Both the position numbers and the translations under genes were made by a program. A stretch of 64,000 bases of DNA from assembly GCF_004114935.1 (NCBI RefSeq), contig NZ_CP022221.1, positions 9,135,001-9,199,000 of the forward strand, in the 5' to 3' direction. The stretch is from Bradyrhizobium zhanjiangense. Its GTDB lineage: Bacteria; Pseudomonadota; Alphaproteobacteria; Rhizobiales; Xanthobacteraceae. Positions 33,116-63,357 of the stretch are shown here, piece after piece. The notes under the pieces are model-generated. The model did not search any database. It saw only the letters and a list, made by a program, of their open reading frames with translations, and was not told where the DNA came from. Position 1 is the first letter of the stretch. Every line of letters begins with the position of its first letter.

Positions 33116-34567
<1,452 letters not shown>

Positions 34568-34692: not shown

Positions 34693-36381
34693 TTACACCC
34701 GCGTCATATCGAATTTCGGCTTCTGGCCGCTGCCGTAGCGGCGCAGCGCGCCTTCCTCGCCGACCGCGTTCGGGCGCTGGAAGATCCAGTTCTGCCAGGC
34801 CGTCAGACGCGCAAAGATCTTTGATTCCATCGTCTCGGGGCCGACGAAGCGCAGGCTCGCTTCCATGCCGGTGAGGCTGTCGGGCGAGAAGCTGGCGCGC
34901 TCCTCCAGGAAGACGCGCACTTCATCATCCCAGTCGATGTCGTCGAGCGCGAAGGTCACGAGACCGAGCTCTTCCGCCTGCTCGGCGTCGAGCGCGGTGC
35001 CGAGCGTCGCCTCCGCGCGCTCCACGTCGGACGGATCGGCCTGGAAGCGCGATTGAAGCCGCGTCAGGCCGTGGCTCATCGGATACGGGCCGAAATTCAT
35101 CGCGGACAGTTCGATCGATGGCGGCGGGCGGTTGTCACCCTGGCGCGTGCCGATCAGCATGTAGGAGCGGTCGGCGGCGAACACGAGCTCGGCCAGCGTG
35201 CCGGCAAAGCAGGACCCGGGCTCGACCAGCGTCACCAGCGTGCGCGAGGTCACGTCGATGCGCTTGAGGACTCGCTTCCAGTAGTGCCTGATTTCGTTGA
35301 CCAGCCAGTGCGCCTTGTTGGCCTCGAGGAAGGCGTCGCTGGCAAGCACATGGGCGCGGTCGCCATGGCTCTTGAACACCAGCATGGCGATCTCGAGCTC
35401 GTTGATGCGCAAATGCAAAATGGCATCGTCGAGCTCGCGCGCGAGCTGAAGCGGCCAGAACGAAGCCCCTTGCGCCATCATGCCGTCGATGTCGGCCGGC
35501 GGCGCCGCTTCCGGACCCTTGATCGAAATGGTGGCGATGCGCGCTGTGCGATCGATATCGACCGTGACGAAGCCGTAGCGGATGCTGGTCTCGTCGATCA
35601 GGCGCTTGAGCGGCGTTAGCGCGATGCCCTTGCCGCTGCCCTTGCGCTTCGAGGCAGCCGCGAATTCCTTTGCGCGCTCGGTGATCTTGGCCTCGAGCTT
35701 CGAGTTCGGCGCGATCTCATCGACGAGGCGCCATTGCACGGCGCGCTTGCCCTTCACGCCCTCCTCGATGGTGCAGAAGAAATCGGCGTGGTCGCGGCGC
35801 ACTTTTCGCTTGTCGACGACGCGTGTCAGCCCGCCGGTGCCGGGCAGCACCGCGAGCAGCGGCACTTCGGGCAGCGCAACAGCGGACGAGCCGTCGTCGG
35901 CGAGGATGATGTGATCAGTCGCGAGCGCGAGCTCATAGCCGCCGCCGGCCGCCGAGCCGTTCACCACCGTGATGAAACGCTGGCCGGAATTCTCCGAGGA
36001 GTCCTCCATGCCGTTGCGGGTCTCGTTGGTGAACTTGCAGAAATTGACCTTGTGGGCGTGGGTGGAGCCGGCGAGCATGCGGATGTTGGCGCCGGCGCAG
36101 AACACGCGGTTTTTGGCCGAGCGCATCACGACGACCTTCACCTCGGGATGCTCGAAGCGCAGCCGTTGGAGCGCATCCGCGAGCTCGATGTCGACACCGA
36201 GATCGTAGGAATTGAGCTTGAGCAGATAGCCCTCGAACAGGCCGCCATTCTCGTCGACGTCCATGGTCAGCGTCGCGACGTCGCCATCGACCGCAAGCTT
36301 CCAATGCCGGTAGCGGGACGGGTCAGTCTGGAAATCGATGAATGTCGCGCCGCCTGCGAGGCGCCGATCTTCCCCGGCCAT
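34693..36381 (-). CDS. boxC: 2,3-epoxybenzoyl-CoA dihydrolase BoxC
   Basis: A 562-residue enzyme of the enoyl-CoA hydratase superfamily. It opens the epoxide ring of 2,3-epoxybenzoyl-CoA, releasing formate and 3,4-dehydroadipyl-CoA semialdehyde. NRVFCAGANIRMLAGSTHAH supplies the CoA oxyanion-hole region, and NGSAAGGGYELALATDHIIL the second; ALPEVPLLAVLPGTGGLTRV follows. The length, about twice a normal crotonase, fits BoxC. TGCA-type sites lie just upstream (36406-36493). Confidence 0.95.
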   Translation of the reverse strand: MAGEDRRLAGGATFIDFQTDPSRYRHWKLAVDGDVATLTMDVDENGGLFEGYLLKLNSYDLGVDIELADALQRLRFEHPEVKVVVMRSAKNRVFCAGANIRMLAGSTHAHKVNFCKFTNETRNGMEDSSENSGQRFITVVNGSAAGGGYELALATDHIILADDGSSAVALPEVPLLAVLPGTGGLTRVVDKRKVRRDHADFFCTIEEGVKGKRAVQWRLVDEIAPNSKLEAKITERAKEFAAASKRKGSGKGIALTPLKRLIDETSIRYGFVTVDIDRTARIATISIKGPEAAPPADIDGMMAQGASFWPLQLARELDDAILHLRINELEIAMLVFKSHGDRAHVLASDAFLEANKAHWLVNEIRHYWKRVLKRIDVTSRTLVTLVEPGSCFAGTLAELVFAADRSYMLIGTRQGDNRPPPSIELSAMNFGPYPMSHGLTRLQSRFQADPSDVERAEATLGTALDAEQAEELGLVTFALDDIDWDDEVRVFLEERASFSPDSLTGMEASLRFVGPETMESKIFARLTAWQNWIFQRPNAVGEEGALRRYGSGQKPKFDMTRV

Positions 36382-36405: not shown

Positions 36406-36493
36406 TGCATTTTCGCCGTAGCGTTAGATGCACAATAATGCATCTTTTTGGATGCGTCTAGCCCCTAACAGCCATTACATGCACTTTGTTTCA
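36406..36493. promoter_or_regulatory. candidate BoxR operators upstream of boxC
   Basis: TGCA-N6-TGCA occurs at 36429-36442 and the close variant TGCA-N6-TTCA at 36480-36493; a further TGCA is at 36406-36409. BzdR/BoxR-type regulators are known to bind TGCA-containing operators. The sites lie 25-112 bp upstream of the boxC start, in the gap between the hydrolase gene and boxC, so boxC-boxB probably has its own BoxR-controlled promoter. Confidence 0.65.
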
Positions 36494-36563
36494 TGCCTGG
36501 TCCAAGGCCGCGCCGATGTTGCGGGCGCGCTCGGGTCTCGGACGTGTCACGCCGCTACCGCCA

Positions 36564-37382
36564 TCATGCGGCGCGTCCTTGCAGTCCCTGATCCTCGCGC
36601 AGGGCCGCTGTCGCAAATTGCCCAATCGCCTCAAGCGTCGCCGCCGGCGCCTCGCGATGCGGGGAATGCCCCGCGCCTGGAATGATTTTCAGATCGACCG
36701 GGCAGTAGCACTCCTGCTGCGCAATCTCGACCTGACGCAGGGTGCCATATTGGTCGTCCCTGCCCTGCAGGACCATGACGGGAACGCGGATGTAGGCGAG
36801 GTATTCGGAAATGTCCCAGTCGCGGAATTTCGGATCGAGCCAGGCGCCGTTCCAGCCGTAGAAGGCGTTGTCGACGTCCTGATGCCAGCGCGCGAGCTTT
36901 GCCTTGAGGTCCGTGGACTCGTAGGCGATCTTGATCGCGGCGATCGATTTCACCGAGATGTCCTCGACGATGAAATGCGGCGCGATCAGCACGAGGCCGC
37001 TGAGGCGATGATCCTGATGCGCGCCGGCATAGATCGTCGCGATCGAGGCGCCGTCGGAATGGCCGAGCAGAAGGCCGCGCTTGAAGGAGATCGCGTCGAG
37101 CAGCTTCGGCAGCACGTCCAGCGCCTCGCGCTGCATGTAGTCGAGTGGTCGCGGCAGCGCGACCTTGCTCGACTGGCCGTAGCCTGCCCGCGAGTAGACG
37201 AAGATGCCGGCGCCTGTGGCTTGCTGAAGCTTGTCCGGGAAGTCGCCCCACTGCCCGACCGAGCCGAGGCCTTCATGCAGCATGACGATGGTGGGCGCAT
37301 CTGCAGCTTGCGGCGCGAGCCATTTGTATTCGAGGCGGGCGTCGCCGATGCTGAGGAAGCCGGTGGGGGTGAGGTTGATCAT
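36564..37382 (-). CDS. alpha/beta hydrolase in the box cluster
   Basis: A 272-residue serine-type alpha/beta-hydrolase: oxyanion region MLHEGLGSVGQW, nucleophile elbow LLGHSDGAS (Ser about 107), acid LQGRDDQYG, and His in GAGHSPHREAP. It lies between benzoate-CoA ligase and boxC on the same strand. A thioesterase or hydrolase role on CoA or ring-opened intermediates is plausible but not shown; it is not one of the core box steps. Confidence 0.82.
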   Translation of the reverse strand: MINLTPTGFLSIGDARLEYKWLAPQAADAPTIVMLHEGLGSVGQWGDFPDKLQQATGAGIFVYSRAGYGQSSKVALPRPLDYMQREALDVLPKLLDAISFKRGLLLGHSDGASIATIYAGAHQDHRLSGLVLIAPHFIVEDISVKSIAAIKIAYESTDLKAKLARWHQDVDNAFYGWNGAWLDPKFRDWDISEYLAYIRVPVMVLQGRDDQYGTLRQVEIAQQECYCPVDLKIIPGAGHSPHREAPAATLEAIGQFATAALREDQGLQGRAA

Positions 37383-37418
37383 TGTCGAATTCCCATTCCT
37401 AGCCACTGCCGAGATGCC

Positions 37419-37595
37419 CACCCTCCCCTGGAGGGGGAGGGTCGATTCACAGCGAGCGTAGCGAGATGTGAAGCGGGGTGGGGTGACAGTCTGTCCACGG
37501 ATGCGGTGCCCGCGTGGAGAGATCACCCCACCCCGCTTCGCATTGCGCTTTGCTCCATGCGAAGCGACCCTCCCCCTCCAGGGGAGGGTAAGGCG
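37419..37595. repeat. palindromic repeat (CCCTCCCCTGGAGGGGGAGGG type)
   Basis: CCACCCTCCCCTGGAGGGGG at the left is matched by CTCCCCCTCCAGGGGAGGG at the right, with GAAGCGGGGTGGGGTGA/TCACCCCACCCCGCTTC inside. It lies between the alpha/beta hydrolase and benzoate-CoA ligase genes, on the same transcript. Confidence 0.7.
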
Positions 37596-37625
37596 CGGCG
37601 AGTGCGGTACGCTCAGCACCCAGCA

Positions 37626-39200
37626 TCAATTCGCCCCTTCCCGCAGCTTGAACCGCTGGATCTTTCCGGTCGCCGTCTTCGGCAGCGAGTCCACCACATC
37701 GATCCAGCGCGGATATTTCCACGGGCCGATCTTCTGCTTGACATGCTCCTTCAGCATCTCCTGAAGATCGTTCGTCGTTGCGCCAGGGCGCAGCACGACA
37801 AAGGCCTTTGGCTTCAACAAGCCTTCTGGATCGGCCTCGGGTACGACGGCGGCTTCCAGCACGGCGGGATGCGTGATCAACGCGCTCTCGACCTCGAAGG
37901 GCGAGACCCAGATGCCGGAGACCTTGAACATGTCGTCGGCGCGGCCGCAGAAGGTGTAGCGGCCATCAGTGTCGCGGACATATTTGTCGCCGGTCCGTGT
38001 CCACGGTCCCTCGAAGGTGCGGCGGCTCTTGTGGCGCTGATTCCAATAGCCCTCGCCGGCGGAGGGGGCATCGACCAGGAGCTCGCCGACCTCGCCGTCA
38101 GCCACATCCTGGCCGGCCTCGTTGACGAGCCGCACCGCATAGCCCGGCACCGGCTTGCCCGAGGAGCCATACTTGATATCGCCGGGCGCGTTCGACAGGA
38201 AGATATGGAGCAGCTCGGTCGAGCCGACACCGTCGAGAATGTCGACTCCGAAGCGTGCCTTCCAGCTGTTGCCGACGGACTCCGGCAGCGCCTCGCCGGC
38301 CGAGGTGCAGATGCGCAGCGCCTTGCCGCCGCGCTCATTCTTCATGGTCTCGTCGTTGAGCATGGCCGCGAACAAGGTCGGCACGCCGTAGAAGATCGAG
38401 GGGTTGTAACGGTTCATCAGGTCGAACATGCGTGCCGGTGTCGGCCGCTCGCTGTTCAGAATCACCGTGGCGCCGACCGACATCGGGAAGGTCAGCGCAT
38501 TGCCGAGACCATAGGCGAAGAACAGCTTTGCCGCGGACAGGCAGACGTCGTTCTCGCGGATGCCGAGCACCTGTTTTGCGTAGGTGTCCGCGGTCGCCTG
38601 CAAGTTCGAATGCAGATGGCGCACGCCCTTGGGCATGCCGGTCGAGCCCGAGGAATAGAGCCAAAAGGCAGGCTCGTCGGGATGCGTCGCCGCGGTAGTG
38701 AACTGATCGCTCTCGCCGGCGATCTCCTCGGCGAGCTGCTTGTGGCCATTCTGCTTGGCACCGGAGACCACGACATGCTCGAGATCCGGCATGCGGCCGA
38801 CGACGTCCTTGATGACGGGATAGAGCGCCTCGGACACGAACAGCACGCGCGCGCGGCAGTCGGCGAGTATGTAGGCGTATTGGTCCGCGGTCAGCAGCGT
38901 GTTGAGCGGCACCGGCACGATGCCGGCGCGGATCGCGCCGAGGAATACGATCGGGAAATCGACCGTATCAAGCATGATCATCGCCACGCGCTCCTCGCGG
39001 CGAACGCCGAGCCGACGCAGCATGTTGGCGGCGCGGCGGCTCTCACGTTGAAGCTCGCCATAGGTGAGCTGCGAGACGGTGTCGTCGAACACGAGCTTGC
39101 CTCCCCTGCCCTCCTCGACGTTACGGTCGAGCAGCCAGGTCACCGCGTTGTAGGATCCCTCGCTCACGGACGTCTCCCCGACTTTAGAATTATAATTCAT
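37626..39200 (-). CDS. benzoate-CoA ligase
   Basis: A 524-residue ATP-dependent acyl-CoA synthetase that activates benzoate, the entry step of the box pathway. The AMP motif is FWLYSSGSTGMPKGV; GVGSTELLHIFLSN, RTGDKYVRDTDGRYTFCGRAD and KTATGKIQRF (catalytic Lys) follow. FAYGLGNALTFPM is typical of the benzoate/hydroxybenzoate CoA-ligase group. The name badA or bclA would fit; I cannot choose. Start 39200 was taken at MNYNSK; 39242 is in frame but less likely. It is divergent from boxR with a TGCA-like site between. Confidence 0.92.
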   Translation of the reverse strand: MNYNSKVGETSVSEGSYNAVTWLLDRNVEEGRGGKLVFDDTVSQLTYGELQRESRRAANMLRRLGVRREERVAMIMLDTVDFPIVFLGAIRAGIVPVPLNTLLTADQYAYILADCRARVLFVSEALYPVIKDVVGRMPDLEHVVVSGAKQNGHKQLAEEIAGESDQFTTAATHPDEPAFWLYSSGSTGMPKGVRHLHSNLQATADTYAKQVLGIRENDVCLSAAKLFFAYGLGNALTFPMSVGATVILNSERPTPARMFDLMNRYNPSIFYGVPTLFAAMLNDETMKNERGGKALRICTSAGEALPESVGNSWKARFGVDILDGVGSTELLHIFLSNAPGDIKYGSSGKPVPGYAVRLVNEAGQDVADGEVGELLVDAPSAGEGYWNQRHKSRRTFEGPWTRTGDKYVRDTDGRYTFCGRADDMFKVSGIWVSPFEVESALITHPAVLEAAVVPEADPEGLLKPKAFVVLRPGATTNDLQEMLKEHVKQKIGPWKYPRWIDVVDSLPKTATGKIQRFKLREGAN

Positions 39201-39237
39201 AGAAAGACACCACAGCGGCTTGCTGTCAATGCCAGCA

Positions 39238-39251
39238 GGCACTATGTTTCA
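39238..39251. promoter_or_regulatory. candidate BoxR operator between benzoate-CoA ligase and boxR
   Basis: GGCA-CTATGT-TTCA, which matches the boxC-side site TGCA-CTTTGT-TTCA at 12 of 14 positions. It lies 38 bp from the ligase start and 37 bp from the boxR start, the place for an operator serving both divergent promoters. Confidence 0.55.
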
Positions 39252-39288
39252 TTAAAACGCGCCGCAGGACATCCGCTAAAGAAGCCTC

Positions 39289-40197
39289 ATGACCGAAAGT
39301 CCCGACGCCGAATCCCGATTTCTCGAACAGCTCGGCCAGCGCGTACGCACCATGCGCGCGCTGCGCGGCATGTCGCGCAAAGTGCTCGCCAAGGTATCGG
39401 GAATTTCGGAGCGCTACATCGCGCAGCTCGAGAGCGGCAAGGGCAATGTCTCCATCGTGCTGCTCCGCCGCGTCTCCGACGCGATGGGCGCACATCTCGA
39501 AGACCTGCTTCCCTCGGCGGATCCGACGCCGGACTGGCAGATGTTTCGCGATCTGTTGCGCAAGGCGACACCAGCGCAGATCGCGCAGGCCAAGGACCTG
39601 CTCGCCGGCGGCAGCGCGTCTGCGCCGCGGCGCGCGCCGTTCTGCGGCATTGCGCTGATCGGCTTGCGCGGCGCCGGCAAATCCACGCTCGGCCGGATGC
39701 TGGCGAAGAAGATCGGCTGGAGTTTTGTCGAGCTCAACAAGGAGGTCGAGCAGCAGAACGGTCTCTCGGTCGCCGAGATCATCGCGCTCTACGGCCAGGA
39801 AGGCTTTCGGCGCATGGAGCAGGCGGCGCTGCAGCAGCTGCTCGCGCGCAACGAGCTGATGGTGCTGGCGACCGGCGGCGGCATAGTCTCCGAGCCCCTG
39901 ACCTTCGACCAGATCCTGTCGTCGTTCTACACGATCTGGCTGAAGGCCGAGCCGGAAGAGCACATGGCCCGCGTCCGCCGCCAGGGCGATCTGCGCCCAA
40001 TGGCTGACGATCGCTCAGCGATGGCCGAGCTGCGCAACATCCTCTTGAGCCGCGAGCCGCTGTATTCGCGCGCGACGGCGGTGGTGGATACCGCGGGCCT
40101 CTCCATCGATGCCGCGGCCGCGCGGCTAATCGACGCGGTGCGCCCAGTGCTGCAGAACGAAGCGCGCAGTTTTGGATTGCGCAGCGTGGCGCTGTAA
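39289..40197 (+). CDS. boxR: BoxR-type transcriptional regulator (XRE HTH fused to shikimate-kinase-like domain)
   Basis: A 302-residue two-domain regulator. The N-terminal XRE helix-turn-helix reads MSRKVLAKVSGISERYIAQL (about residues 28-47). The C-terminal domain (from about 115) is shikimate-kinase-like with P-loop IGLRGAGKST (125-133 core) and LATGGGIV. BzdR/BoxR proteins with this layout repress benzoate genes and release DNA on binding benzoyl-CoA. It is divergent from the ligase gene and followed 2 bp later by a truncated haemoglobin. Confidence 0.93.
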   Translation: MTESPDAESRFLEQLGQRVRTMRALRGMSRKVLAKVSGISERYIAQLESGKGNVSIVLLRRVSDAMGAHLEDLLPSADPTPDWQMFRDLLRKATPAQIAQAKDLLAGGSASAPRRAPFCGIALIGLRGAGKSTLGRMLAKKIGWSFVELNKEVEQQNGLSVAEIIALYGQEGFRRMEQAALQQLLARNELMVLATGGGIVSEPLTFDQILSSFYTIWLKAEPEEHMARVRRQGDLRPMADDRSAMAELRNILLSREPLYSRATAVVDTAGLSIDAAAARLIDAVRPVLQNEARSFGLRSVAL

Positions 40198-40199
40198 AG

Positions 40200-40595
40200 A
40201 TGACCGACAGCACCGTCACTATCTCCATGTTCGAGCGGATCGGCGGCAGTGCCACGATCGAGCTTCTGGTCGATCGCTTCTACCAGCGCATGGACACGCT
40301 GCCAGAGGCGAAAGTCATCCGCGCGATGCATGCGGCCGACCTCGGCCTGATCAGGGACGTGCTGAAGCGATATCTCACCGAATGGACCGGGGGCCCACGA
40401 CTCTATTCGGTCGATAAGGGCCATCCGCGGCTGCGACAGCGCCACATCGGTTTTTCCATCGGCGATGCTGAGCGCGACGCGTGGATGGCCTGCATGCGCG
40501 GCGCGCTGGAGGAGACGGTGGCGGATCGTGCCGCGCGGCAGGATCTCGACAAGGCGCTGTCCGGCCTCGCCGACTGGATGCGCAACCGGAATTGA
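40200..40595 (+). CDS. group II truncated haemoglobin
   Basis: A 131-residue trHb2. It starts SMFERIGGSATIELLVDRFY; LTEWTGGPRLYSVDKGHPRL is the E-helix region with the proximal area at RHIGFSIGDAERDAWMACM, where the conserved Trp (WMACM) is the G8-type residue of group II. It begins 2 bp after boxR stops, so it is almost surely co-transcribed. The neighbour BoxB needs O2; O2 delivery, or protection against NO or O2, is plausible but inferred. Confidence 0.88.
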   Translation: MTDSTVTISMFERIGGSATIELLVDRFYQRMDTLPEAKVIRAMHAADLGLIRDVLKRYLTEWTGGPRLYSVDKGHPRLRQRHIGFSIGDAERDAWMACMRGALEETVADRAARQDLDKALSGLADWMRNRN

Positions 40596-40633
40596 TCCGA
40601 GCGTGGAGCTCGCCCACAGGAGCTGCGACGCGG

Positions 40634-40966
40634 TTAGATCGACCAGTAATGCGGATGCGGATAGGGCCGCGAGCGGTCGCCCCAATCGAACGCGTCGCCG
40701 TCGAATTCGCATGGGCCGCTGCTGAGCTGGTCCAGCGTCACCTCGGCCTGGAAGGCCTGACGTCCCGGATCATATTTCAGCGCGCTCCACTGCAGAGGAT
40801 AGTGGTGATGAGTGCCGAGCAGCCGGCCGGTCTTGATCACGGCGTAGGCGACGGTTCCGCTCACCTTGTCGAGCATCAATCGCTCGATCGTGCCGAGCTT
40901 GCTGCCGTCACTCCCATAGACGGCGACGTGCTCGACGCGATCACTGGGAACCATGGTGTGTTGCAT
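40634..40966 (-). CDS. PRC-barrel domain protein
   Basis: A 110-residue protein with a PRC-barrel fold: DRVEHVAVYGSDGSKLGTIE, LMLDKVSGTVAYAVI and YPLQWSALKYDP. The C-terminus is His/Tyr/Pro-rich (PYPHPHYWS). Such domains occur in photosynthetic reaction centre H subunits and in RNA-processing or stress proteins. It converges with the haemoglobin gene; no functional link is seen. Confidence 0.8.
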   Translation of the reverse strand: MQHTMVPSDRVEHVAVYGSDGSKLGTIERLMLDKVSGTVAYAVIKTGRLLGTHHHYPLQWSALKYDPGRQAFQAEVTLDQLSSGPCEFDGDAFDWGDRSRPYPHPHYWSI

Positions 40967-41066
40967 GGCGTGCTCCCTGATCTTGTCCGGACAGCATTAT
41001 AGCACAGACGGCGGCGTGTAGGACGGCTCTGCGTCAGCCCAGTCCGCTCTTGCGTTGCACCTAAAG

Positions 41067-41852
41067 CTACAGAAGTTGCGAGCGCACCGCCTCCGCGCCG
41101 TCGCGCAACAGCGGCAGGAAGCGATCGAGCAGCTCCTGAGCGGGCACGCGGTCGACATGGGCGCCCATGTTGATGGCGGCAACGATCACGCCGTCGTAAC
41201 GGCGGACGGGGACCGAGATCGAGCGGAAATGCGGCTCCGCTTCGCGGTCAACCAGCGAGTAGCCCTGTGCGCGGTCGGCGCTGATGCGCGCGAGCAGCGC
41301 CTTCGGATCGGTTTCAGTCTGCGGCGTCAGCGCCTGGCGGTTCATCGCATTCAGGCGCGCGGCGAGATCGGCATCGTCGAACTGGCCCAGCATGGCGCGG
41401 CCAACCGAGGTGCAGAAGGCCGGCAGCCGGTAACCGATCTCCAATCCGCCGGAAAATATCCGCGTCGGACCGCCGCGGGCGATAAACACGACGTCATCAC
41501 CATCGAGCACCGCCAGCGAAGAGATTTCCTGCGCCGCGATTGCGATGCGATCGAGCACGGGCTGAAGCACGGCGATGATCTGACTCGAGCGCAAATAGGA
41601 TGTAGCCAACGTCAGCACATGCGGCGTCAGCGAGAACAGCTTGCCATCGCCGGAGACGTAACCGCCGCGCTGGAGCGTGAGCAGCATGCGCCGCGCCGTG
41701 GCGCGCGGCAGATCGGCGGCACGGGCGAGATCGCTCAGCGTCATCGGGCCGGCCGTGGCGCCGAAGCACTGCAGCAGCCGCAAACCACGATCGAGGCTCT
41801 CGACGAAATCCGTCGCGCGCTCGTCACTCTCGCTGCGCTTCAGCTTGGGCAT
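41067..41852 (-). CDS. IclR-family transcriptional regulator (PcaR/PcaU/PobR group)
   Basis: A 261-residue regulator. The N-terminal winged helix has VESLDRGLRLLQCFGATAGP, LSDLARAADLPRATARRML and LQRGGYVSGDGKLFSLTP. The effector domain has LPAFCTSVGRAMLGQ and VPVRRYDGVIVAAINMG. This branch mostly controls protocatechuate and hydroxybenzoate genes. It is divergent from the Rieske oxygenase with a palindromic site between. Confidence 0.9.
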   Translation of the reverse strand: MPKLKRSESDERATDFVESLDRGLRLLQCFGATAGPMTLSDLARAADLPRATARRMLLTLQRGGYVSGDGKLFSLTPHVLTLATSYLRSSQIIAVLQPVLDRIAIAAQEISSLAVLDGDDVVFIARGGPTRIFSGGLEIGYRLPAFCTSVGRAMLGQFDDADLAARLNAMNRQALTPQTETDPKALLARISADRAQGYSLVDREAEPHFRSISVPVRRYDGVIVAAINMGAHVDRVPAQELLDRFLPLLRDGAEAVRSQLL

Positions 41853-41908
41853 GGCTTCGGGACAATCCTGCAAAATAGTGCTTGCTGCAGCTCCAAGGCA
41901 TGTCATAA

Positions 41909-41934
41909 TTCGCCCATTCGTTCAATAGGCGAAC
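41909..41934. promoter_or_regulatory. palindromic operator candidate between iclR-type gene and Rieske oxygenase
   Basis: GTTCAATAGGCGAAC (41920-41934) is an inverted repeat GTTC-N7-GAAC, similar in form to IclR/PobR-type operators. A wider TTCGCC (41909-41914) / GGCGAA (41928-41933) pair overlaps it. It lies 57 bp before the IclR-type start and 29 bp before the oxygenase ATG, so one protein could control both. Confidence 0.55.
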
Positions 41935-41962
41935 AAACGCCCTCCACAAGGATGCACCCGCC

Positions 41963-43321
41963 ATGATGAGCCAGGAGCAGAACGACCTGATCACCCGCAC
42001 CGGTCCGAAGGATCCTTGCGGCAAGTTGATGCGGAGTTATTGGCAGCCGGCGGCGCTGGTGGACGAGCTGGAGGGTGCGCGGCCGATCCGTCCCGTAAAA
42101 CTGCTCGGCGAGAGCCTGGTGCTGTTCCGCGACGAGCAAGGGCGTTACGGCCTGATCGATCGCCACTGCGCGCATCGCGGCGCCGACCTCGCCTTCGGGC
42201 GGCTCGAACATGGCGGACTGCGCTGCGCCTTCCATGGTTGGCTGTTCGACGCCACCGGCCAGTGCATCGAGACTCCGGCCGAGCCGAAGGACTCAAAACT
42301 CTGCCAGAACATCCGCCAGCGCTCCTATCCCGTGGTGGAGAAGAGCGGCATCCTCTGGGCTTATCTCGGCGAAGGTGAGCCGCCGGCATTCCCGGAGATC
42401 GACTGCTTCGTTGCGCCGGGCTCTCACACCTTCGCCTTCAAGGGCCACATGGCCTGCAACTGGCTGCAGGCGCTCGAAGTCGGCATCGATCCCGCGCACG
42501 CCTCCTATCTGCACCGCTTCTTCGAGGATGAAGACACTTCCACCGCCTACGGCAAGCAATTCCGCGGCGCCTCGGCCGGCTCGGACCTGCCGATGACCAA
42601 AATCCTGCGCGAATATGACCGCCCGATCATCAATGTCGAGCACACCGAATACGGTCTCAGGCTGATCGCACTGCGCGAGATCGACGAGGAGCGCACCCAT
42701 GTGCGCGTCACCAATCAGCTCTTCCCGCATGGCTTCATCATCCCCATGAGCACGGAGATGACGATCACCCAGTGGCACGTGCCGGTCGACGACGAGAACT
42801 GCTATTGGTACGCGATCTTCACCAGCTACACCAACCCGGTGGACAAGACGAAGATGCGCGAGCAGCGGCTCGAGCTCTATGAGCTGCCCGACTACAAATC
42901 GCGCAAGAACAGCAGCAACGATTACGGCTTCGATCCGCACGAACAGCAGACCGCGACCTACACCGGCATGGGCACCGACATCAACGTCCACGACCAGTGG
43001 GCGGTGGAATCGATGGGCGCGATCCAGGACCGCACCAAGGAGCATCTCGGTCAGAGCGACAAGGCGATCGTGCAATATCGCCGCCTGCTGCGGCAGGAGA
43101 TCGAGAAGGTTTCGTGTGGCGAGAAGCCGATGCTGTTTCTGGACGAAGCCAACGCACGCAGCATCCAGGGCCCGGCGACCATGGACGGCATCGGCCCGAC
43201 GCGGGGCTGGGAGACCTATTGGATGGAAGTCGACGTCAAGCGCCGCCGCGGCGCGCCATGGACTGCGCCGGTGCCTAAGGACATTGCCGACAACGTGCAT
43301 CGGCTGACGGCGGCGGAGTGA
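41963..43321 (+). CDS. Rieske aromatic ring-hydroxylating oxygenase, large subunit
   Basis: A 452-residue oxygenase alpha subunit. The Rieske [2Fe-2S] motif C-x-H...C-x2-H is at Cys69, His71, Cys88 and His91 (HCAHRGADL, CAFHGWLFD). The mononuclear iron site has Asp176, His179 and His184 in GIDPAHASYLH. It resembles the phthalate/phenoxybenzoate single-component group, in which a separate reductase is used; none is adjacent. It is divergent from the IclR-type regulator. The glutamine-synthetase-like ligase follows about 270 bp downstream beyond two palindromic repeats. Substrate unknown. Confidence 0.9.
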   Translation: MMSQEQNDLITRTGPKDPCGKLMRSYWQPAALVDELEGARPIRPVKLLGESLVLFRDEQGRYGLIDRHCAHRGADLAFGRLEHGGLRCAFHGWLFDATGQCIETPAEPKDSKLCQNIRQRSYPVVEKSGILWAYLGEGEPPAFPEIDCFVAPGSHTFAFKGHMACNWLQALEVGIDPAHASYLHRFFEDEDTSTAYGKQFRGASAGSDLPMTKILREYDRPIINVEHTEYGLRLIALREIDEERTHVRVTNQLFPHGFIIPMSTEMTITQWHVPVDDENCYWYAIFTSYTNPVDKTKMREQRLELYELPDYKSRKNSSNDYGFDPHEQQTATYTGMGTDINVHDQWAVESMGAIQDRTKEHLGQSDKAIVQYRRLLRQEIEKVSCGEKPMLFLDEANARSIQGPATMDGIGPTRGWETYWMEVDVKRRRGAPWTAPVPKDIADNVHRLTAAE

Positions 43322-43339
43322 CCTTAGTGCATCGAAGCC

Positions 43340-43542
43340 GTAGGGTGGGCAAAGGCGCAAAGCGCCGTGCCCACCATGCTTTCTTTCAGACGATAGGCAC
43401 GCGGTGGGCACGCTACGCTTTGCCCACCCTACGGTAGCGGAGTCAACGTGATGGCCTATCCTCGTCATTGCGAGCGCAGCGAAGCAATCCAGAAATGCCC
43501 CCGCAGAGAGACTCTGGATTGCTTCGCTACGCTCGCAATGGC
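43340..43542. repeat. palindromic repeats family A (copy 3) and family B (copy 2) in tandem
   Basis: 43340-43432 is family A (GTAGGGTGGGCAAAGG ... TTTGCCCACCCTAC) and 43464-43542 family B (CGTCATTGCGAGCGCAGCG ... GCTACGCTCGCAATGGCG). They fill the gap between the Rieske gene and the GS-like gene and may separate the transcripts. No gene was seen here. Confidence 0.75.
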
Positions 43543-43590
43543 GGAGTATGTTGCAGCAGCTTCGCGTCGAACGACTAGAGGAGTGGAGAA

Positions 43591-45051
43591 GTGACTTTCG
43601 TCGCGCGTCATGGGCTGTGGTCGGATGAGCAGAGGGACGCGGCGACGCGCATGCGCCGCATCGTCGAGGAAAAGAACCTCGAGGTCATTCGCCTCGCCTT
43701 TCCCGACCAGCACGGCATCTTGCGCGGCAAGACCATCATCGCCTCCGAAGCTCTCGCCTCGCTGGAGAGCGGCTGCTCCATCACCACCACCATGCTCGCC
43801 AAGGACACCTCGCATCGCACGGTGTTTCCGGTATTCACCTCAGGCGGCGGCTTCGGCATGAAGGAGATGGAGGGCGCGGCCGACGTGCTGATGGTCGCCG
43901 ATCCCACCACCTTCCGCGTTTTGCCTTGGGCGCCGGCGACGGGCTGGGTGCTGTGCGATCTCTATTTTGGCGACGGCCGTCCGGTGCCGTTTGCAACCCG
44001 CGGACTCTATCGCAAGGTGCTCGATGAGTTCGGCATGCGCGGCTACGATTTCGTTGCGGGCCTCGAAGTCGAATTCCACATCTTTAGACTCGACGACCCG
44101 CACATGCGCCCGGAAGACGCAGGCCAGCCCGGCACGCCGCCTTCGGTGAGCCTGCTCAGCCACGGCTATCAATACCTCACCGAGCAGCGCTTCGATCAGA
44201 TGGAACCGGTGCTGGAGATTTTGCGCCGCGACATCGTCGCGCTCGGATTGCCCTTGCGCTCGGTCGAGGTCGAGTTCGGGCCGAGCCAGTGCGAGTTCAC
44301 CTTCGCGCCGAGGAAAGGACTCGAACCGGCCGATAACATGGTGCTGTTCCGCTCCGCCGTGAAGCAGATCGCGCGCCGGCATGGCTATCACGCCACCTTC
44401 ATGTGCCGGCCGAAACTGCCGAACGTGTTCGCGAGCGGCTGGCATCTGCACCAGTCGATCGTCTCGCGCACGACCGGCGAGAACCAGTTCATGGCCAAAG
44501 AAACGGCAAGGAAAACGGCAAAGGACGACGGCGAGCCGCTTAGCGCGTTCGGCAAGGCGTACCTGGCCGGCCTGCTCGACCACGCCCGCGCCTCCACCGT
44601 GTTCACCACCCCGACCATCAACGGTTACAAGCGCTACCGCTCCTATTCGTTGGCGCCGGACCGCGCGATCTGGGGCCGCGACAATCGCGGCGTGATGATC
44701 CGCGTGCTCGGGGCGGCCGGCGATGCGGCGACGCGCCTGGAAAACCGCATCGGCGAACCCGCTGCCAATCCCTATCTCTACATGGCCTCGCAGATCCTGT
44801 CGGGCCTCGACGGCGTCGATCGCAAGCTCGATCCGGGCCCCTCCGCCGATACCCCCTACGAGACCAAGGCGCCGCTCCTGCCGAAATCGCTGCGCGATGC
44901 GGTTTCCGCACTCAAGGACGATCCGTTCTTCCGCGAAAAGCTCGGGCCTGAATTCGTCGACTATTACACCCACATCAAGAACACCGAGATCGATCGCTTC
45001 CTCGCCGAGGTGACCGACTGGGAGCACCGCGAATATTTCGAGGCGTTCTGA
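43591..45051 (+). CDS. glutamine synthetase-family ligase (gamma-glutamylamide-type candidate)
   Basis: A 486-residue protein of the GlnA superfamily, not the housekeeping enzyme. Metal/glutamate ligands lie in GLEVEFHIF, SVEVEFGPSQCEFTF and SGWHLHQSI; the nucleotide part includes PTINGYKRYR and ENRIGEPAANPYLYMASQ. The N-terminus is the usual beta-grasp (RLAFPDQHGILRGK). GS-like paralogs in catabolic clusters join glutamate to amines (polyamines, aniline, isopropylamine). The Rieske/IclR neighbours suggest an aromatic amine substrate; that is inference. It starts with GTG after a strong AGAGGAGTGGAG site. Confidence 0.85.
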   Translation: MTFVARHGLWSDEQRDAATRMRRIVEEKNLEVIRLAFPDQHGILRGKTIIASEALASLESGCSITTTMLAKDTSHRTVFPVFTSGGGFGMKEMEGAADVLMVADPTTFRVLPWAPATGWVLCDLYFGDGRPVPFATRGLYRKVLDEFGMRGYDFVAGLEVEFHIFRLDDPHMRPEDAGQPGTPPSVSLLSHGYQYLTEQRFDQMEPVLEILRRDIVALGLPLRSVEVEFGPSQCEFTFAPRKGLEPADNMVLFRSAVKQIARRHGYHATFMCRPKLPNVFASGWHLHQSIVSRTTGENQFMAKETARKTAKDDGEPLSAFGKAYLAGLLDHARASTVFTTPTINGYKRYRSYSLAPDRAIWGRDNRGVMIRVLGAAGDAATRLENRIGEPAANPYLYMASQILSGLDGVDRKLDPGPSADTPYETKAPLLPKSLRDAVSALKDDPFFREKLGPEFVDYYTHIKNTEIDRFLAEVTDWEHREYFEAF

Positions 45052-45443
45052 TCCGTGGGCGCCGTCGTTCCGGGATAGCGCGAAGCACCAGACCCGGAAC
45101 AGCGAGATTCCGGGGGTTCGGTCCTGCGGACCGCCTCCTGAATGACGGCAGGTCGCGCTCACACCGGCGTGAGGCCGTTTCGTCCCGCCGGTTCCGACGA
45201 CATCGCAAACCCGCCCCACGAAGCCATTTTCCGATAGCGGCGAAAATCCCCGGAAAGAAAGCGGGCGCAGACTACTGCCCATGATGAACAATGGAGTTCG
45301 ATCATGTTGAGTCAGTTGTTCAGTGTGATCTATCGCCTCTCCTGCCGGTCCACCCTGATCGAAATCGGCACGCACCGTCTGGCACGTTAGGCGCTGGCCG
45401 GCGCGATCAGGTAAGACGGACTGACCAGATGACGGGGATTCCC
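45052..45443. other. 392-bp gap without a secure gene
   Basis: It holds a short inverted repeat (GTCGTTCCGGGATAGCG to the CTCCTGAATGACGG area, 45064-45146). A 28-codon frame at 45304-45390 begins MLSQLFSVIYRL after GGAG 8-9 nt upstream; it could be a small peptide gene but has no other support. Confidence 0.4.
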
Positions 45444-45801
45444 ATGCGCAAGCTGATCCTGATCCGCGATGTCGCTGCTGGCGACGCAAGTGCATGCCGG
45501 CGGGTCGCGGAGCCTGAGCTTGGCGGCAACAAATCCGAACCAGCAGGCAGCCGAGCCGTCGGTCACATCGGCTGCACCGCAGGCTCCGGCAGCAACGCCG
45601 CCGGCAAATATCCAGACAGCGACCACCACGCCGACGACTACGACCGCGCCGGCCGCGACTGCGCCGGTTGCCACAGCACCTGCACAGTCAGCCGCAGCGC
45701 CGGTAACCAGCACGACCGAAGCGGCCAAGCCAAAGCGCCGCCAGCCCTCGGTCGAAGCGCGTGTGATCCGCGAATTGCATCGGCACGGGATTTATTGGTG
45801 A
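45444..45801 (+). pseudogene. small exported Ala/Pro/Thr-rich protein, frameshifted in its signal peptide
   Basis: A well-placed ATG at 45444 (GGGGA 6 nt upstream) starts MRKLILIR and would be an ideal signal peptide, but the reading frame then leaves the long open frame. If one C is dropped near 45465, the reading becomes MRKLILIAMSLLATQVHAGG, a normal signal peptide joined to the main frame. The main frame (from ATG 45469, 110 codons) has RSLSLAATNPNQQ, a Pro/Ala/Thr-rich middle and a conserved-looking tail, VEARVIRELHRHGIYW. Either the gene is disrupted by one inserted base or the sequence has an error; a short product from 45469 remains possible. Confidence 0.6.
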
Positions 45802-45820
45802 GAGCACCCGCCTTCTCCAC

Positions 45821-45907
45821 CGTCATTGCGAGGAGCCCTTGCGACGAAGCAATCCAGACTGCCTCCTCGGAGATGGTCTGGATTGCTTCGCTGCGCTCGC
45901 AATGACG
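45821..45907. repeat. palindromic repeat family B, copy 3
   Basis: CGTCATTGCGAGGAGCCCTT at the left, GCTGCGCTCGCAATGACG at the right, with GCAATCCAGA/TCTGGATTGC inside. It is almost identical to the copy at 15215-15302 and lies between the small exported-protein gene and convergent livF. Confidence 0.8.
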
Positions 45908-45923
45908 GGGAGAGAGCGGGGAC

Positions 45924-46637
45924 TCAGATCCCCAAATATTTGTGCTGGAGATCCGGCGCGGCCATCAGCTCGTCGGAGGTGCCGCTCCACACCGTCTTGC
46001 CGCGCTCGATGATGTAGTGGCGGTCGCAGATGCGAGCGAGGTGATCGACATTCTTGTCGACCACCAGGATCGACTGTCCGCGGCTCTTGAGCAGCGACAG
46101 GCAATTCCAGATCTCCTCACGGATCAGCGGCGCGAGACCTTCGGTCGCTTCATCCAGAATCAGGAGTTTTGGATTCGTCATCAGCGCGCGGCCGATGGCG
46201 AGCATCTGCTGCTCGCCGCCGGAGAGCTGGTTGCCCATGTTGGCGGCACGCTCGGCGAGGCGCGGAAACAGCACGTAGATCGCGGCCAGCGTCCAGGGAT
46301 TGGGGCTGCCGAAGCGATCGGCGGCGGCGGCCACGAGATTTTCGCGCACGGTGAGGTTCGGGAAGATCTGGCGTCCTTCAGGGACGAGGCCGACGCCGAG
46401 TTTTGCAATTCTGTACGACGGAAGCTGTCGCACCTCGGCGCCCGCAAAGCGGATCGCGCCTGATCGCGCCGGCGTCAGGCCCATAATCGAGCGGATCGTC
46501 GTAGTCTTGCCCATGCCGTTGCGGCCCATCAGCGAGACCATCTCGCCGGGCTTGATCGACAGCGACAGCCCGAACAGCACCTGGGAGAGGCCGTAGCAGG
46601 TTTCGATGCCGTCGACGTCGAGCAGCGTGTCAGCCAT
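45924..46637 (-). CDS. livF: LivF-type ABC transporter ATPase
   Basis: A 237-residue ATPase of the branched-chain-amino-acid (HAAT) class. Walker A GRNGMGKTT, signature QLSGGEQQMLAIGRAL, Walker B LLILDEATEGLAP. Such transporters carry amino acids, but in soil alphaproteobacteria also aromatic acids. It overlaps livG by 8 nt and is the last gene of livHMGF. The operon contains no binding protein. Confidence 0.9.
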   Translation of the reverse strand: MADTLLDVDGIETCYGLSQVLFGLSLSIKPGEMVSLMGRNGMGKTTTIRSIMGLTPARSGAIRFAGAEVRQLPSYRIAKLGVGLVPEGRQIFPNLTVRENLVAAAADRFGSPNPWTLAAIYVLFPRLAERAANMGNQLSGGEQQMLAIGRALMTNPKLLILDEATEGLAPLIREEIWNCLSLLKSRGQSILVVDKNVDHLARICDRHYIIERGKTVWSGTSDELMAAPDLQHKYLGI

Positions 46638-47397
46638 GATGCGTCACCACATGCTGATCGCCGAGATAGGCGCGCTTGACGTCCTCGTTCTGGCGGATCG
46701 CGGCCGGATCGCCGGAGGCGATGACACGGCCGTAGACCAGCACCGAAATGCGATCGGCGAGCGCGAACACCGCCGGCATGTCGTGCTCGACCAGCACGAT
46801 CGAGACCTCTTTGCGCAGCTCCTGGAGCAGCTTCACCATGCGCTGGGATTCGGTGACCCCTAAGCCGGCCATCGGCTCGTCGAGCAGCAGGAGCTTTGGC
46901 TTGCTCGCGAGCGCAACCGCAAGCTCGAGCTCGCGGCGCTCGCCATGGCTCAGCCTGGACACCACGACATCGGCGCGATGCGACAGGCCGACGCGATCGA
47001 GCGCGGCATGCGCGGCATCGCGCAGGCCCCTCTCCTTGCGCGCGTTGGCGAAGAAGCGGAACGACGTGCCGGCATGCGCTTGGGCTGCCAGCGCGACATT
47101 GTCGGCGGCGGTGAAATCGAGCAGCAGCGAGGTGATCTGGAACGAACGGGCAAGGCCCAGCGCGCAGCGCCGATAGGCCGGCAGATAGGTGATGTCGCGC
47201 CCAGCCAGCGAGACGCTACCGGAATGCGGTTCGAGATGCCCGGTGAGCTGGCTGATCAGCGTGGTCTTGCCGGCACCGTTCGGGCCGATGATGGCGTGCA
47301 GCTCGCCGCTAGCGACGTCGAGCGAGACGTTGTCGGTCGCGATGATGCCGCCGAAGCGGCGCACCAGCTTTTCGACGCGGAGCAGGGGTTCAGCCAC
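46630..47397 (-). CDS. livG: LivG-type ABC transporter ATPase
   Basis: A 255-residue ATPase. Walker A IGPNGAGKTTLISQLTG, signature SRLSHGERRELELAVALA (SHGE variant of the usual SGGE/SHGQ), Walker B LLLLDEPMAGLG. GTG 47397 is chosen because GGGAGGG lies 8 nt upstream; GTG 47418 would lengthen it by seven residues. It overlaps livM by 8 nt. Confidence 0.9.
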   Translation of the reverse strand: MAEPLLRVEKLVRRFGGIIATDNVSLDVASGELHAIIGPNGAGKTTLISQLTGHLEPHSGSVSLAGRDITYLPAYRRCALGLARSFQITSLLLDFTAADNVALAAQAHAGTSFRFFANARKERGLRDAAHAALDRVGLSHRADVVVSRLSHGERRELELAVALASKPKLLLLDEPMAGLGVTESQRMVKLLQELRKEVSIVLVEHDMPAVFALADRISVLVYGRVIASGDPAAIRQNEDVKRAYLGDQHVVTHHG

Positions 47398-48334
47398 GGC
47401 CAGCCCTCCCGAGCGCACCCATGATGCCGCCGCGGCCGAACAGGACGATGAGCAGCAAGAGCGGGCCCATGATCAGCGCCCAGTATTCGGTGATCTGCGA
47501 CAGGAACTCTTCCAGCAGCAGGAACACCACCGCTCCCATGATCGGGCCGAACAGCGTGCCCATGCCGCCCAGGATCACCATCACCATGAGATCGCCGGAG
47601 CGGGTCCAGTACATCACGGCCGGGCTGACGAAATCAGTGTTGTTGGCGAGCAGCGCGCCGGCAAGGCCGCACATCGTGCCGGATATGACGAAGCAAACCA
47701 GCTGGTAGCGCTTGGCCGGAAAGCCGATCGCCTGCATGCGCTGCTCGTTGGAGCGCAGACCCTGCACGACGAGGCCGAAGCGCGAATTGACGATGCGCCA
47801 GATCAGGAAGATGACGCCAAACAGGCAGGCGAGGCAGAGATAGTAGAACTGCGTGCGATTCGACAGGTCGACCAGCCCCGAGAAGTCGCTGCGCTTGTAG
47901 ATGGTCAGGCCGTCATCACCACCGTAGCGCGCCAGGCCCGAGGCGACGTAATAGGCCATCTGCGCGAAGGCGAGCGTGATCATGATGAAATAGACGCCGC
48001 GGGTGCGCAAAGAGAGCGCGCCGATCACGAGCGCATAGATCGCGGAGGCAGCGAGCGCGACCGGAAACTGAATGAAACCGGAACCTACGCCTTCCTGCGC
48101 CAGCATGCCGACGGCGTAGCCGCCGATGCCGAGATAGGCGGCATGACCAAAGCTCATCATGCCGCCAAAGCCCATGATGAGGTTGAGGCTCGCGGCCGCC
48201 AGCGCCAGGATGATGATGCGGGTGAACAGCGTCAGGATGAAGATGTTGCCGGTCAGGTGCGAATAGAGCGGCAGCAGCACGAGGCCCACCAGCATCAGGG
48301 CCGTGACGGCCTTGCTCACAGTGAAAGCCTTCAT
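47390..48334 (-). CDS. livM: LivM-type ABC transporter permease
   Basis: A 314-residue inner-membrane permease with eight to nine transmembrane segments. LNLIMGFGGMMSFGHAAYLG is the canonical LivM pattern. The loop NSRFGLVVQGLRSNEQRMQAIG is the EAA-like ATPase-contact region. LVMVILGGMGTLFGPIMGA closes the permease. It overlaps livH by 4 nt (ATGA). Confidence 0.92.
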   Translation of the reverse strand: MKAFTVSKAVTALMLVGLVLLPLYSHLTGNIFILTLFTRIIILALAAASLNLIMGFGGMMSFGHAAYLGIGGYAVGMLAQEGVGSGFIQFPVALAASAIYALVIGALSLRTRGVYFIMITLAFAQMAYYVASGLARYGGDDGLTIYKRSDFSGLVDLSNRTQFYYLCLACLFGVIFLIWRIVNSRFGLVVQGLRSNEQRMQAIGFPAKRYQLVCFVISGTMCGLAGALLANNTDFVSPAVMYWTRSGDLMVMVILGGMGTLFGPIMGAVVFLLLEEFLSQITEYWALIMGPLLLLIVLFGRGGIMGALGRAGRG

Positions 48335-49248
48335 CGACGACTGGCCGGAAACAGCCCCTCCGGCCGCACCACCAGCACGATCGCCATGAGGAGGTAGATC
48401 AGCATGGACGACAGCGCGGGCGCGGCGGTGGAGGCGGCGGCGCCGCTCAGCACCTGCCGCAGCAGGTTCGGCAGGAAGGCGCGGCCGAGCGTGTCGATCA
48501 TGCCGACGAAGATCGCGGCGAGGAACGCGCCGCGGATCGAGCCGATGCCGCCGATCACGATAATGACGAAAGCGAGGATCAGGATGTTCTCGCCCATGCC
48601 GATCTGCACGGTGAGGATCGGCGCCTGCATCAATCCGGCAAGGCCCGCGAGTGCGGCGCCGAGGCCGAACACCAGCGTGTAGAGCAGCTTGATGTTGATG
48701 CCGAGCGCGCCGATCATCTCGCGGTTGGAGGCGCCGGCCCGGATCAGCATGCCGATGCGCGTGCGCATCACGCCGAGATAGAGCAACAGCGCCACCAGTA
48801 GCGCGACGACGATGATGGCGAGGCGGTAGGCGGGGTAGTGGATGCCGGGCAGGATCGGCACCGGCACGGTGAGCCAGGCCGGCAGCGGCAGCGCGAGGCC
48901 GGCCGGGCCCCAGATCAGCCGCACGGCTTCATTGAAGAACAGGATCAGGCCGAAGGTTGCGAGCACGTGGTCGAGATGGTCGCGGCCATAGAGATGCCGC
49001 AGCGCGCTCATCTCGAGCACGATGCCGAGCACCAGCGTCGCGCCCAGCGCCAGCAGCGCACCGAGCAGGAAGCTGCCGGTCCATGCCGCGAAGGTCGCGG
49101 CGAAATAGGCGCCCATCATGTAGAGCGAGCCGTGCGCGAGGTTGACGAGATCCATGATCCCGAACACCAGCGTCAGGCCGGCGGCGAGCAGAAACAGCAG
49201 CAGGCCGAACTGCAATCCGTTCAAGAACTGTTCGACGACGAGCAGCAT
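48331..49248 (-). CDS. livH: LivH-type ABC transporter permease
   Basis: A 305-residue permease: QFLNGLQFGLLLFLLAAGLT, LVFGIMDLVNLAHGSLYMMG and IVIGGIGSIRGAFLAAIF are LivH signatures, and MLIRAGASNREMIGALGINI is the ATPase contact loop. ATG 49248 (AAAGAG upstream) was preferred over TTG 49251. First gene of the livHMGF operon, with a TGCA-N6-TGCA site 144 bp upstream. Confidence 0.92.
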   Translation of the reverse strand: MLLVVEQFLNGLQFGLLLFLLAAGLTLVFGIMDLVNLAHGSLYMMGAYFAATFAAWTGSFLLGALLALGATLVLGIVLEMSALRHLYGRDHLDHVLATFGLILFFNEAVRLIWGPAGLALPLPAWLTVPVPILPGIHYPAYRLAIIVVALLVALLLYLGVMRTRIGMLIRAGASNREMIGALGINIKLLYTLVFGLGAALAGLAGLMQAPILTVQIGMGENILILAFVIIVIGGIGSIRGAFLAAIFVGMIDTLGRAFLPNLLRQVLSGAAASTAAPALSSMLIYLLMAIVLVVRPEGLFPASRR

Positions 49249-49391
49249 CAAGACTCTTTCAGGCGCACGCGGTGTCGCGCCGATGTTCGAACACAGTCGC
49301 CATCAGTGAAAGAGCTCCCCCTGCCTGTTCAAGGCCGAAAAATGGGTAATGGCAGTATCGTTCCGAGGCAAGAGCGATTTGACACCAAACA

Positions 49392-49405
49392 TGCACTTTG
49401 TTGCA
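49392..49405. promoter_or_regulatory. candidate BoxR operator upstream of the livHMGF operon
   Basis: TGCA-CTTTGT-TGCA, an exact TGCA-N6-TGCA. The spacer CTTTGT is identical to the boxC-side site at 36480. The surrounding stretch from 49249 to 49550 (300 bp) holds no gene. The site is 144-157 bp upstream of livH and would place this transporter under the same regulator as the benzoate genes. Confidence 0.6.
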
Positions 49406-49550
49406 TCTCGGCGTGCGCGGCCGAAACCTGCTCGGCAATGCAAAAAGGTTGCCGCGCGGCATGGGGCAACCTGCCGCACCCAAACGATCACCCTCCCCCG
49501 GCAGGCCGAGGGAGGGTGCGAATATCGTCGAAATTCGGCGAGAAATGCGT

Positions 49551-50427: not shown

Positions 50428-50482
50428 GAACTCCCCCATGGCTCGAAATGAGGGGGAGCCTCAGCGAAAAAGGCAAAGTCGA

Positions 50483-50504
50483 CTATTGGGAAATTTCCCA
50501 GTAG
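50483..50504. promoter_or_regulatory. lux-box-like palindrome before the LuxI gene
   Basis: CTATTGGGAAATTTCCCAGTAG, read as two 11-bp halves around 50493/50494, pairs at 10 of 11 positions (the exception is a T/G step). It sits in the 86-bp gap between the LuxR-type stop (50514) and the synthase start (50427), at a distance where a LuxR-type activator would contact RNA polymerase. LuxR-family operators are typically 18-22 bp palindromes. Confidence 0.72.
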
Positions 50505-63045: not shown

Positions 63046-63357
63046 AACCACTCCCATCCTTGATTATCGATCCCGGAAACGGGGTGATCGCCGCACCGGG
63101 CCAGTCTTTATTGAACGCAAAATCTGTCGAGCCGCCAATGGCTCAGCGTCCGTCCCTGCACCATATTTCGCCAGAATTGGGGATGGCAAGAAATATAATT
63201 CTACTCACTTCGGCCAAGGCATGGTCAAGGCTGCGGCACTTTTTCGCGGCGGATCGATACACCAGGCCTATGCGGCGATTGATGACGGCTATTGGACCGC
63301 GGCGCCCAATCCGCACTTAAATGAGAAGGTAGAGCAGCGAGATTCGAGGGGCACATC
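63046..63357. promoter_or_regulatory. 312-bp divergent intergenic region between orphan binding protein and ndh-type gene
   Basis: It contains TGCA-CCATAT-TTCG at 63157-63170, a poor match (two changes) to the TGCA-N6-TGCA pattern near the box genes, followed by an AT-rich patch at 63176-63212 that could be the core promoter for either gene. No gene was recognised here, although overlapping frames are open. Confidence 0.35.

Follow-up and report, generated by a model that had tools for sequence, protein, structure and literature searches.

Known BoxR and BzdR systems and the locus of Bradyrhizobium zhanjiangense

Regulators of the BzdR/BoxR type repress as dimers through several palindromes, and benzoyl-coenzyme A (benzoyl-CoA) relieves this repression (PMC6678401, PMC3602430, PMC6449761). 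For BzdR, operator OR1 alone suffices for repression, whereas OR2 and OR3 are needed for relief by benzoyl-CoA (PMC6678401). In Betaproteobacteria, the BoxR regulon comprises the box genes, bclA and boxR, to which most genomes add a putative benzoate ATP-binding cassette (ABC) transporter (PMC6449761, Suvorova and Gelfand 2019). No paper on BoxR or the box genes of Bradyrhizobium was found in the open-licence literature. Here we analysed a stretch of 64,000 nucleotides from Bradyrhizobium zhanjiangense (assembly GCF_004114935.1, contig NZ_CP022221.1, positions 9,135,001 to 9,199,000), hereafter the window, which carries box genes, boxR and the genes of a Liv-type importer, livHMGF and livK. 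A reading made from the sequence alone (the sequence-only reading) had proposed, from a TGCA-N6-TGCA motif, that the box genes and livHMGF form one BoxR regulon. Our results support this predicted regulon and extend it to livK: the box and liv promoters share a conserved operator family, and a matrix trained on box sites places the livH site fifth in the window. We put the probability that these palindromes are BoxR operators controlling the box genes and a benzoate-type importer at about 0.8.

As in the Betaproteobacterial BoxR regulon, the palindromes have six bases between TGCA halves and are mostly multiple, several turns apart (PMC6449761). The locus differs from that regulon in its Bradyrhizobium host, in a transporter binding protein only distantly related to the usual one, in the occurrence of TGAA/TTCA halves, in having no boxA over the cut-off, and in a transporter operon that is split, with an operator on each half (PMC6449761). 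It resembles the BzdR/PN promoter system of Azoarcus in the combination of an XRE-type helix-turn-helix (HTH) with a shikimate-kinase-like domain and in the presence of several TGCA-N6-TGCA operators, but the genes are those of the aerobic box pathway, the sites form pairs rather than an OR1 to OR3 array, and livH has a lone site (PMC6678401). With HbaEFGH of Rhodopseudomonas palustris it shares a HAAT-type importer beside benzoate genes (PMC3223731). Control of a benzoate ABC transporter by BoxR has already been predicted in Betaproteobacteria (PMC6449761), and the present case belongs to that known kind. What it adds is the genus, a binding protein that is no orthologue of the usual HbaE type, a degenerate pair of sites 32 bp apart, and a split operon in which each half has its own predicted operator.

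Palindromes shared by the box and liv promoters

The window contains boxB, boxC and a benzoate-CoA ligase gene, and beside bclA and the box genes lies boxR, whose product has the XRE-type HTH fused to the shikimate-kinase-like domain (shikimate kinase models match residues 121-291). The livKHMGF genes are linked to boxR (Table 1). TGCA-N6-TGCA-type palindromes, paired several turns apart, occur at boxC, at bclA/boxR and at livK, and livH has a single site. The family common to the box and liv promoters matches the published TGCA-N6-TGCA (PMC6678401) and ATGCACTATAGTGCAT (PMC6449761), in agreement with the view of the sequence-only reading that TGCA repeats are a BzdR/BoxR feature. The four sequences that it had listed are indeed present: TGCACAATAATGCA at 36429-36442, TGCACTTTGTTTCA at 36480-36493, GGCACTATGTTTCA at 39238-39251 and TGCACTTTGTTGCA at 49392-49405. 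All four lie in promoter regions as it had claimed. A third exact TGCA-N6-TGCA, which it had not listed, at 42455-42468, falls inside a Rieske oxygenase gene and outside the 40 best matrix matches of the window. Absent from that reading were the best-scoring site of all, at 39185-39200, and the two livK sites at 63188-63203 and 63156-63171. Because the best site is TAGAATTATAATTCAT, an operator half may be TGAA/TTCA-like as well as TGCA.

The bare motif, on which the proposal had rested, did not hold as regulon evidence and was rejected, being too frequent in both window and genome: it occurs three times in the window against 1.15 expected, a count of at least three is reached in 10 of 100 shuffles, and the single-contig genome of 9,342,022 bases has 110 copies, so that it is not significant alone. 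Such abundance is what would favour a chance match at livH. The longer palindrome KGCACTWTGTTKCAT, built from three of the sites noted earlier, argues against chance, since its only three exact matches in the genome (boxC, boxR and livH) all lie in this stretch, within 13 kb of the window; allowing one mismatch adds none, and two mismatches give 25. As KGCACTWTGTTKCAT was derived from the tested sites themselves, two fairer tests were made, one with a less circular pattern and one with a box-trained matrix. The pattern, DGMAYTWTDDTKCA, derives from four 14-mers, those of the window's box sites at 36429, 36480, 39186 and 39238, and fits 13 of 19 distinct genome places, namely its four source sites and nine others. 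Two of these nine, at livH and in the gap between an iclR-type and the Rieske gene (iclR/Rieske gap), fall in 27 kb, for which the chance is about 0.0003, the stretch having been picked post hoc. The longer palindrome is strong evidence, the bare motif weak evidence.

The matrix is symmetric, spans 16 bp and was trained solely on boxC and bclA/boxR sites of the genus, using 23 of 30 distinct 16-mers; among the seven rarer ones left out was a boxC variant identical to the livH site. Over the 64 kb it ranked the four box sites first, followed by livH (19.1), livK (18.9) and the iclR/Rieske gap (15.6), the eighth site (14.0) overlapping a boxC site. These eight are all the window sites that score at least 14; the reversed matrix gave none, and 200 column-shuffled matrices gave a mean of 0.52. 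Outside the window, matrix scores cover selected loci and places picked by pattern rather than the whole genome, and one background set, consisting of loci chosen for pattern matches, is biased upward. Of the 12 distinct pattern places outside the stretch, two are strong and nine score 10.0-13.3 or 14.8-15.3; with one exception, these nine lie in open frames of at least 200 residues.

Table 1. Genes and predicted operators of the box and liv region (positions in the window)
Feature	Position	Strand	Evidence
boxB, benzoyl-CoA epoxidase subunit	33116..34567	-	TIGR03225 937.9 bits, cut-off 499.1
boxC, epoxybenzoyl-CoA dihydrolase	34693..36381	-	TIGR03222 991.6 bits, cut-off 712.3
boxC operator 2 (predicted), ATGCACAATAATGCAT	36428..36443		score 22.7, rank 2
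boxC operator 1 (predicted), ATGCACTTTGTTTCAT	36479..36494		score 20.1, rank 4; 51 bp from operator 2
alpha/beta hydrolase reading frame, start probably 37382	36564..37619	-	PF00561
bclA, benzoate-CoA ligase frame, true start probably lower	37626..39242	-	TIGR02262 952.9 bits, cut-off 375.25
bclA/boxR operator 1 (predicted), TAGAATTATAATTCAT	39185..39200		score 22.9, rank 1; in 29 genus loci
bclA/boxR operator 2 (predicted), AGGCACTATGTTTCAT	39237..39252		score 20.3, rank 3; 52 bp from operator 1
boxR, repressor, XRE-type HTH and shikimate-kinase-like domain	39289..40197	+	NF006015 440.8 bits, cut-off 204
PcaR-like IclR-type gene	41067-41906	-	
LigXa-like Rieske oxygenase gene, then glutamine-synthetase-like gene	within 41067-45051	+	
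candidate operator, iclR/Rieske gap, CTGCAAAATAGTGCTT	41868..41883		score 15.6, rank 7
livF, ATP-binding subunit	45924..46637	-	NF008626 188.1 bits, below cut-off 441
livG, ATP-binding subunit	46630..47418	-	TIGR03411, NF008449, below cut-offs
livM, permease	47390..48334	-	TIGR03408, NF008450, below cut-offs
livH, permease, ATG at 49248	48331..49248	-	PF02653
livH operator (predicted), ATGCACTTTGTTGCAT	49391..49406		score 19.1, rank 5; left out of training
livK, substrate-binding protein of split livKHMGF	61873..63045	-	orthologous to livH-adjoining livK of the second clade
livK operator 2 (predicted, weak), GCGAAATATGGTGCAG as read on the minus strand	63156..63171	-	score 9.3, rank 11
livK operator 1 (predicted), TAGAATTATATTTCTT as read on the minus strand	63188..63203	-	score 18.9, rank 6; left out of training

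Conservation of the sites in the genus and beyond

A BoxR match at E 0.001 is present in 98 of 98 Bradyrhizobium genomes; that of G090 (87% complete), with an E-value of 5e-22, covers no true BoxR. The remaining 97 proteins comprise 51 at 94-100% identity (the window's clade) and 46 at 81-90% (the second clade, clade B), and LivH is found at E 1e-100 in 96 of the 98 genomes. The HTH segment of BoxR is nearly identical across the genus and recognisably similar in other genera.

The sites are conserved along with the regulator. The boxC pair, 50-53 bp apart, occurs in all 28 genus loci holding that stretch, and the bclA/boxR pair is spaced by 52 bp in 28 of 29 loci and by 54 bp in one; in the thirtieth locus (L120) it lies farther from boxR. 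The site in the iclR/Rieske gap is present in 11 of 12 window-clade loci; the 20 loci of the other clade yielded a single weak one (12.8). In the window's clade, 50 of the 52 livH copies have an exact 15-mer 139-144 bp upstream, the exceptions being G016 (on another contig) and G095 (no exact match). This fixed distance, together with the exact genome matches of KGCACTWTGTTKCAT, makes a chance origin of the livH match barely credible. In an 11-locus alignment the livH 16-mer is identical in ten loci and differs by one base in one; its left flank is variable and its right flank largely conserved, so that just one edge of the footprint is sharp. The idea that part of a box promoter was copied to livH found no support, as similarity to the boxC site stops within a few bases of the palindrome.

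Two further occurrences stand apart. The exact livH 15-mer is also present at G065:C1:312097 (L134), with none of the searched genes nearby, and on contig C16 of G011 boxR, livH, the livH operator and the livK site each occur twice, either because the region is duplicated or through an error of assembly.

Beyond the genus, 30 stretches around BoxR matches, part of those found, were read. The matrix finds sites at boxC, boxR and livK of such loci: all 21 stretches that hold boxC have a site of at least 12.5 within 400 bp before it, compared with 4.3% of random 400-bp windows of the same loci, real operators included, and the other 9 of the 30 are without boxC. A livK homologue stands beside the box genes in 10 of the 30 loci, six with sites of their own and four on the same strand downstream of boxR or bclA. 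These data also bear on the question of whether a different regulator acts at the livH site. The IclR-type (41067-41906) or LuxR-type (50514-51299) protein might be proposed, since both genes neighbour the liv genes. However, boxC and boxR carry the same motif both within this genus and beyond it, and the livK pair is kept both in clade-B loci without luxI or luxR matches and in loci without an iclR match (L111, L120, L122 and L123), so that we regard control by either protein as improbable.

A split transporter operon with a predicted operator on each half

The livHMGF operon of the sequence-only reading is linked to the box genes, but is incomplete: its livK lies 12.6 kb upstream of livH, on the same strand and with sites of its own, beyond a block that holds a quorum-sensing pair and another transporter. 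A different binding protein, encoded at 53813-55003, was rejected as the partner of livHMGF, having 23% identity to the livK product of the other clade over the matched part and best PDB matches that include leucine-type proteins.

Twelve genomes of the window's clade were examined for the split. In 11 of them livK and livH are about 4-20 kb apart on one strand; G047 is the exception, with the two genes far apart. In the second clade livK directly precedes livH in the loci where both were read, and this adjoining arrangement is presumably the older. The interruption in G030 is smaller: an inverted aroE-like gene parts livK from livH, and the site before livH (13.9) is weaker than the two sites of the pair upstream of livK (17.2 and 16.6).

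Counts for livK rest on the best 80 LivK loci. A pair of sites 32 bp apart with a score sum of at least 18 lies upstream of livK in 79 of them, against 32 of 2000 random windows of the same loci, real operators included. A second check, from which the truncated locus L114 is left out, found the pair in 12 of 12 window-clade loci and, for the other clade, in all 13 loci that could be used (33 bp apart in one). A pattern for the first livK site, fitted to sites already seen and compared in position with livK only where livK was located, matched 85 of 98 genomes, once each except for one genome with two matches, and its control gave none. By contrast, none of the 43 loci in which livK adjoins livH has a livH site of at least 13 (in the remaining 37 of the 80, livH is outside the fetched stretch, partly at contig ends). 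The other clade had been suspected of lacking BoxR control of the liv genes for want of a strong palindrome before its livH; this was rejected, because livK stands directly before livH and the degenerate pair lies upstream. In L106, where livK was not found at that position, a livK-type pair directly precedes livH.

It seems an even bet that in the window's clade a BoxR-controlled livKHMGF was cut by inserted genes, here a block that includes a BjaI-like quorum-sensing pair, and that livHMGF, once cut off, acquired its own strong BoxR operator, since kept nearly unchanged. Co-regulation would then have been re-established after the split, and the BoxR regulon of this clade would also have spread to the iclR/Rieske promoter.

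The binding protein and the likely substrate

The best PDB match of LivK is 4evq (1.6e-53, 185 bits), which we take to be HbaE/RPA0668, and by PDB comparison its nearest solved relatives are Rhodopseudomonas-type aromatic-acid binding proteins. Because HbaE binds benzoate and 4-hydroxybenzoate (PMC3223731), an aromatic acid is likely for LivK as well, and the earlier prediction of benzoate import gains support from these aromatic-acid-binding relatives. Benzoate, or an aromatic acid close to it, is the most likely cargo of the importer.

LivK is nevertheless unlike HbaE of HbaEFGH, scoring 185 bits to 4evq where the box-linked LivK of L174 scores 430. The latter is one of two (of ten) box-linked LivK proteins of other genera that were compared with PDB; both are HbaE-like, the second scoring 410 bits. 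LivK of the window is 32% identical to that of L174, and among 60 genus genomes, the window's included, 59 have no HbaE-type LivK at E 1e-100, G030 being the exception. From the bit score, the identity and this absence it appears that Bradyrhizobium has a different binding protein under seemingly the same regulator.

This difference leaves some room for an importer that, under BoxR control, serves the Rieske and glutamine-synthetase-like genes and so carries another aromatic acid, such as a substituted or amino-benzoate, instead of benzoate. In either clade, most loci have both genes in the interval from boxR to livF, the iclR/Rieske gap contains a candidate operator, and the genes at 41067-45051 possibly form a pathway for another aromatic acid. 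On the other hand, L122 has no match to either the Rieske or the glutamine-synthetase-like gene and yet retains boxR and livKHMGF, and the livK homologues beside box genes of other genera are HbaE-type where tested (2 of 10). We consider import of another acid possible but doubtful, and retain benzoate or a close relative as the preferred substrate.

Weighing the predicted regulon

Several observations count against a BoxR regulon that includes the importer. Among the places scored elsewhere in the genome, two rival the livH site. The first, at 628045 (L207:4044-4059), separates a LysR gene from a flavin adenine dinucleotide (FAD)-monooxygenase gene and scores 20.2, which exceeds the livH score; the second, at 7628137 (L208:4137-4150), falls within a PAP2 reading frame and scores 19.2. 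The window's second livK site is weak, at 9.3 (rank 11). Five of the 30 other-genus loci (L177 and L179-L182) have a BoxR homologue with no box genes and no site of at least 12.5. LivK is neither HbaE-type nor an orthologue of HbaE. Finally, the lone livH site fits less well, as BzdR needs extra sites for release by benzoyl-CoA, whereas the pairs at boxC, bclA/boxR and livK agree with this need for several sites (PMC6678401).

Under the BoxR reading, in the absence of benzoate BoxR dimers would occupy the sites, as pairs 50-53 bp apart at boxC and bclA/boxR and 32 bp apart at livK, and would repress boxC-boxB, bclA, boxR and the livK/livHMGF importer. Once BclA forms benzoyl-CoA, BoxR would be released, so that uptake and breakdown would rise together. 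In the window's clade, with livKHMGF split, livHMGF would respond through its own strong operator and livK through the old pair that it keeps.

Neighbouring genes

No BoxA (TIGR03224) scores over the cut-off in the genome (best 83.4 bits against 459.2), and BoxB may therefore use another reductase. A bacterial globin gene (PF01152; 40200-40595, plus strand) directly follows boxR; it was matched in most, not all, window-clade loci and in none of L104-L123. In most of the loci read, the IclR, Rieske and glutamine-synthetase-like genes (41067-45051) separate boxR from the liv genes. Inside the transporter split, between livH and livK, is a LuxI/LuxR pair (49771-51299), and its LuxI matches PDB 5w8c/5w8a (Autoinducer synthase) with 410 bits. 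This entry is presumably BjaI, which makes isovaleryl-homoserine lactone. The region 51867-61524 holds a LysR gene and an AroE-like gene, as well as genes for another periplasmic binding protein and for more ABC transporter components, whose substrates may be acids resembling shikimate or quinate.

Implications for Bradyrhizobium

The locus provides a testable benzoate regulon for an important nitrogen-fixing genus, together with a likely substrate class for an importer otherwise named just branched-chain amino acid transport and with its missing binding protein. If the prediction is true, importer and breakdown enzymes are most likely made together in Bradyrhizobium, a soil bacterium. A split operon whose halves each have a predicted operator would allow a test of whether selection restores co-regulation after operon breakage and, if the proposed history is true, would be a natural case of co-regulation re-established after such a split.

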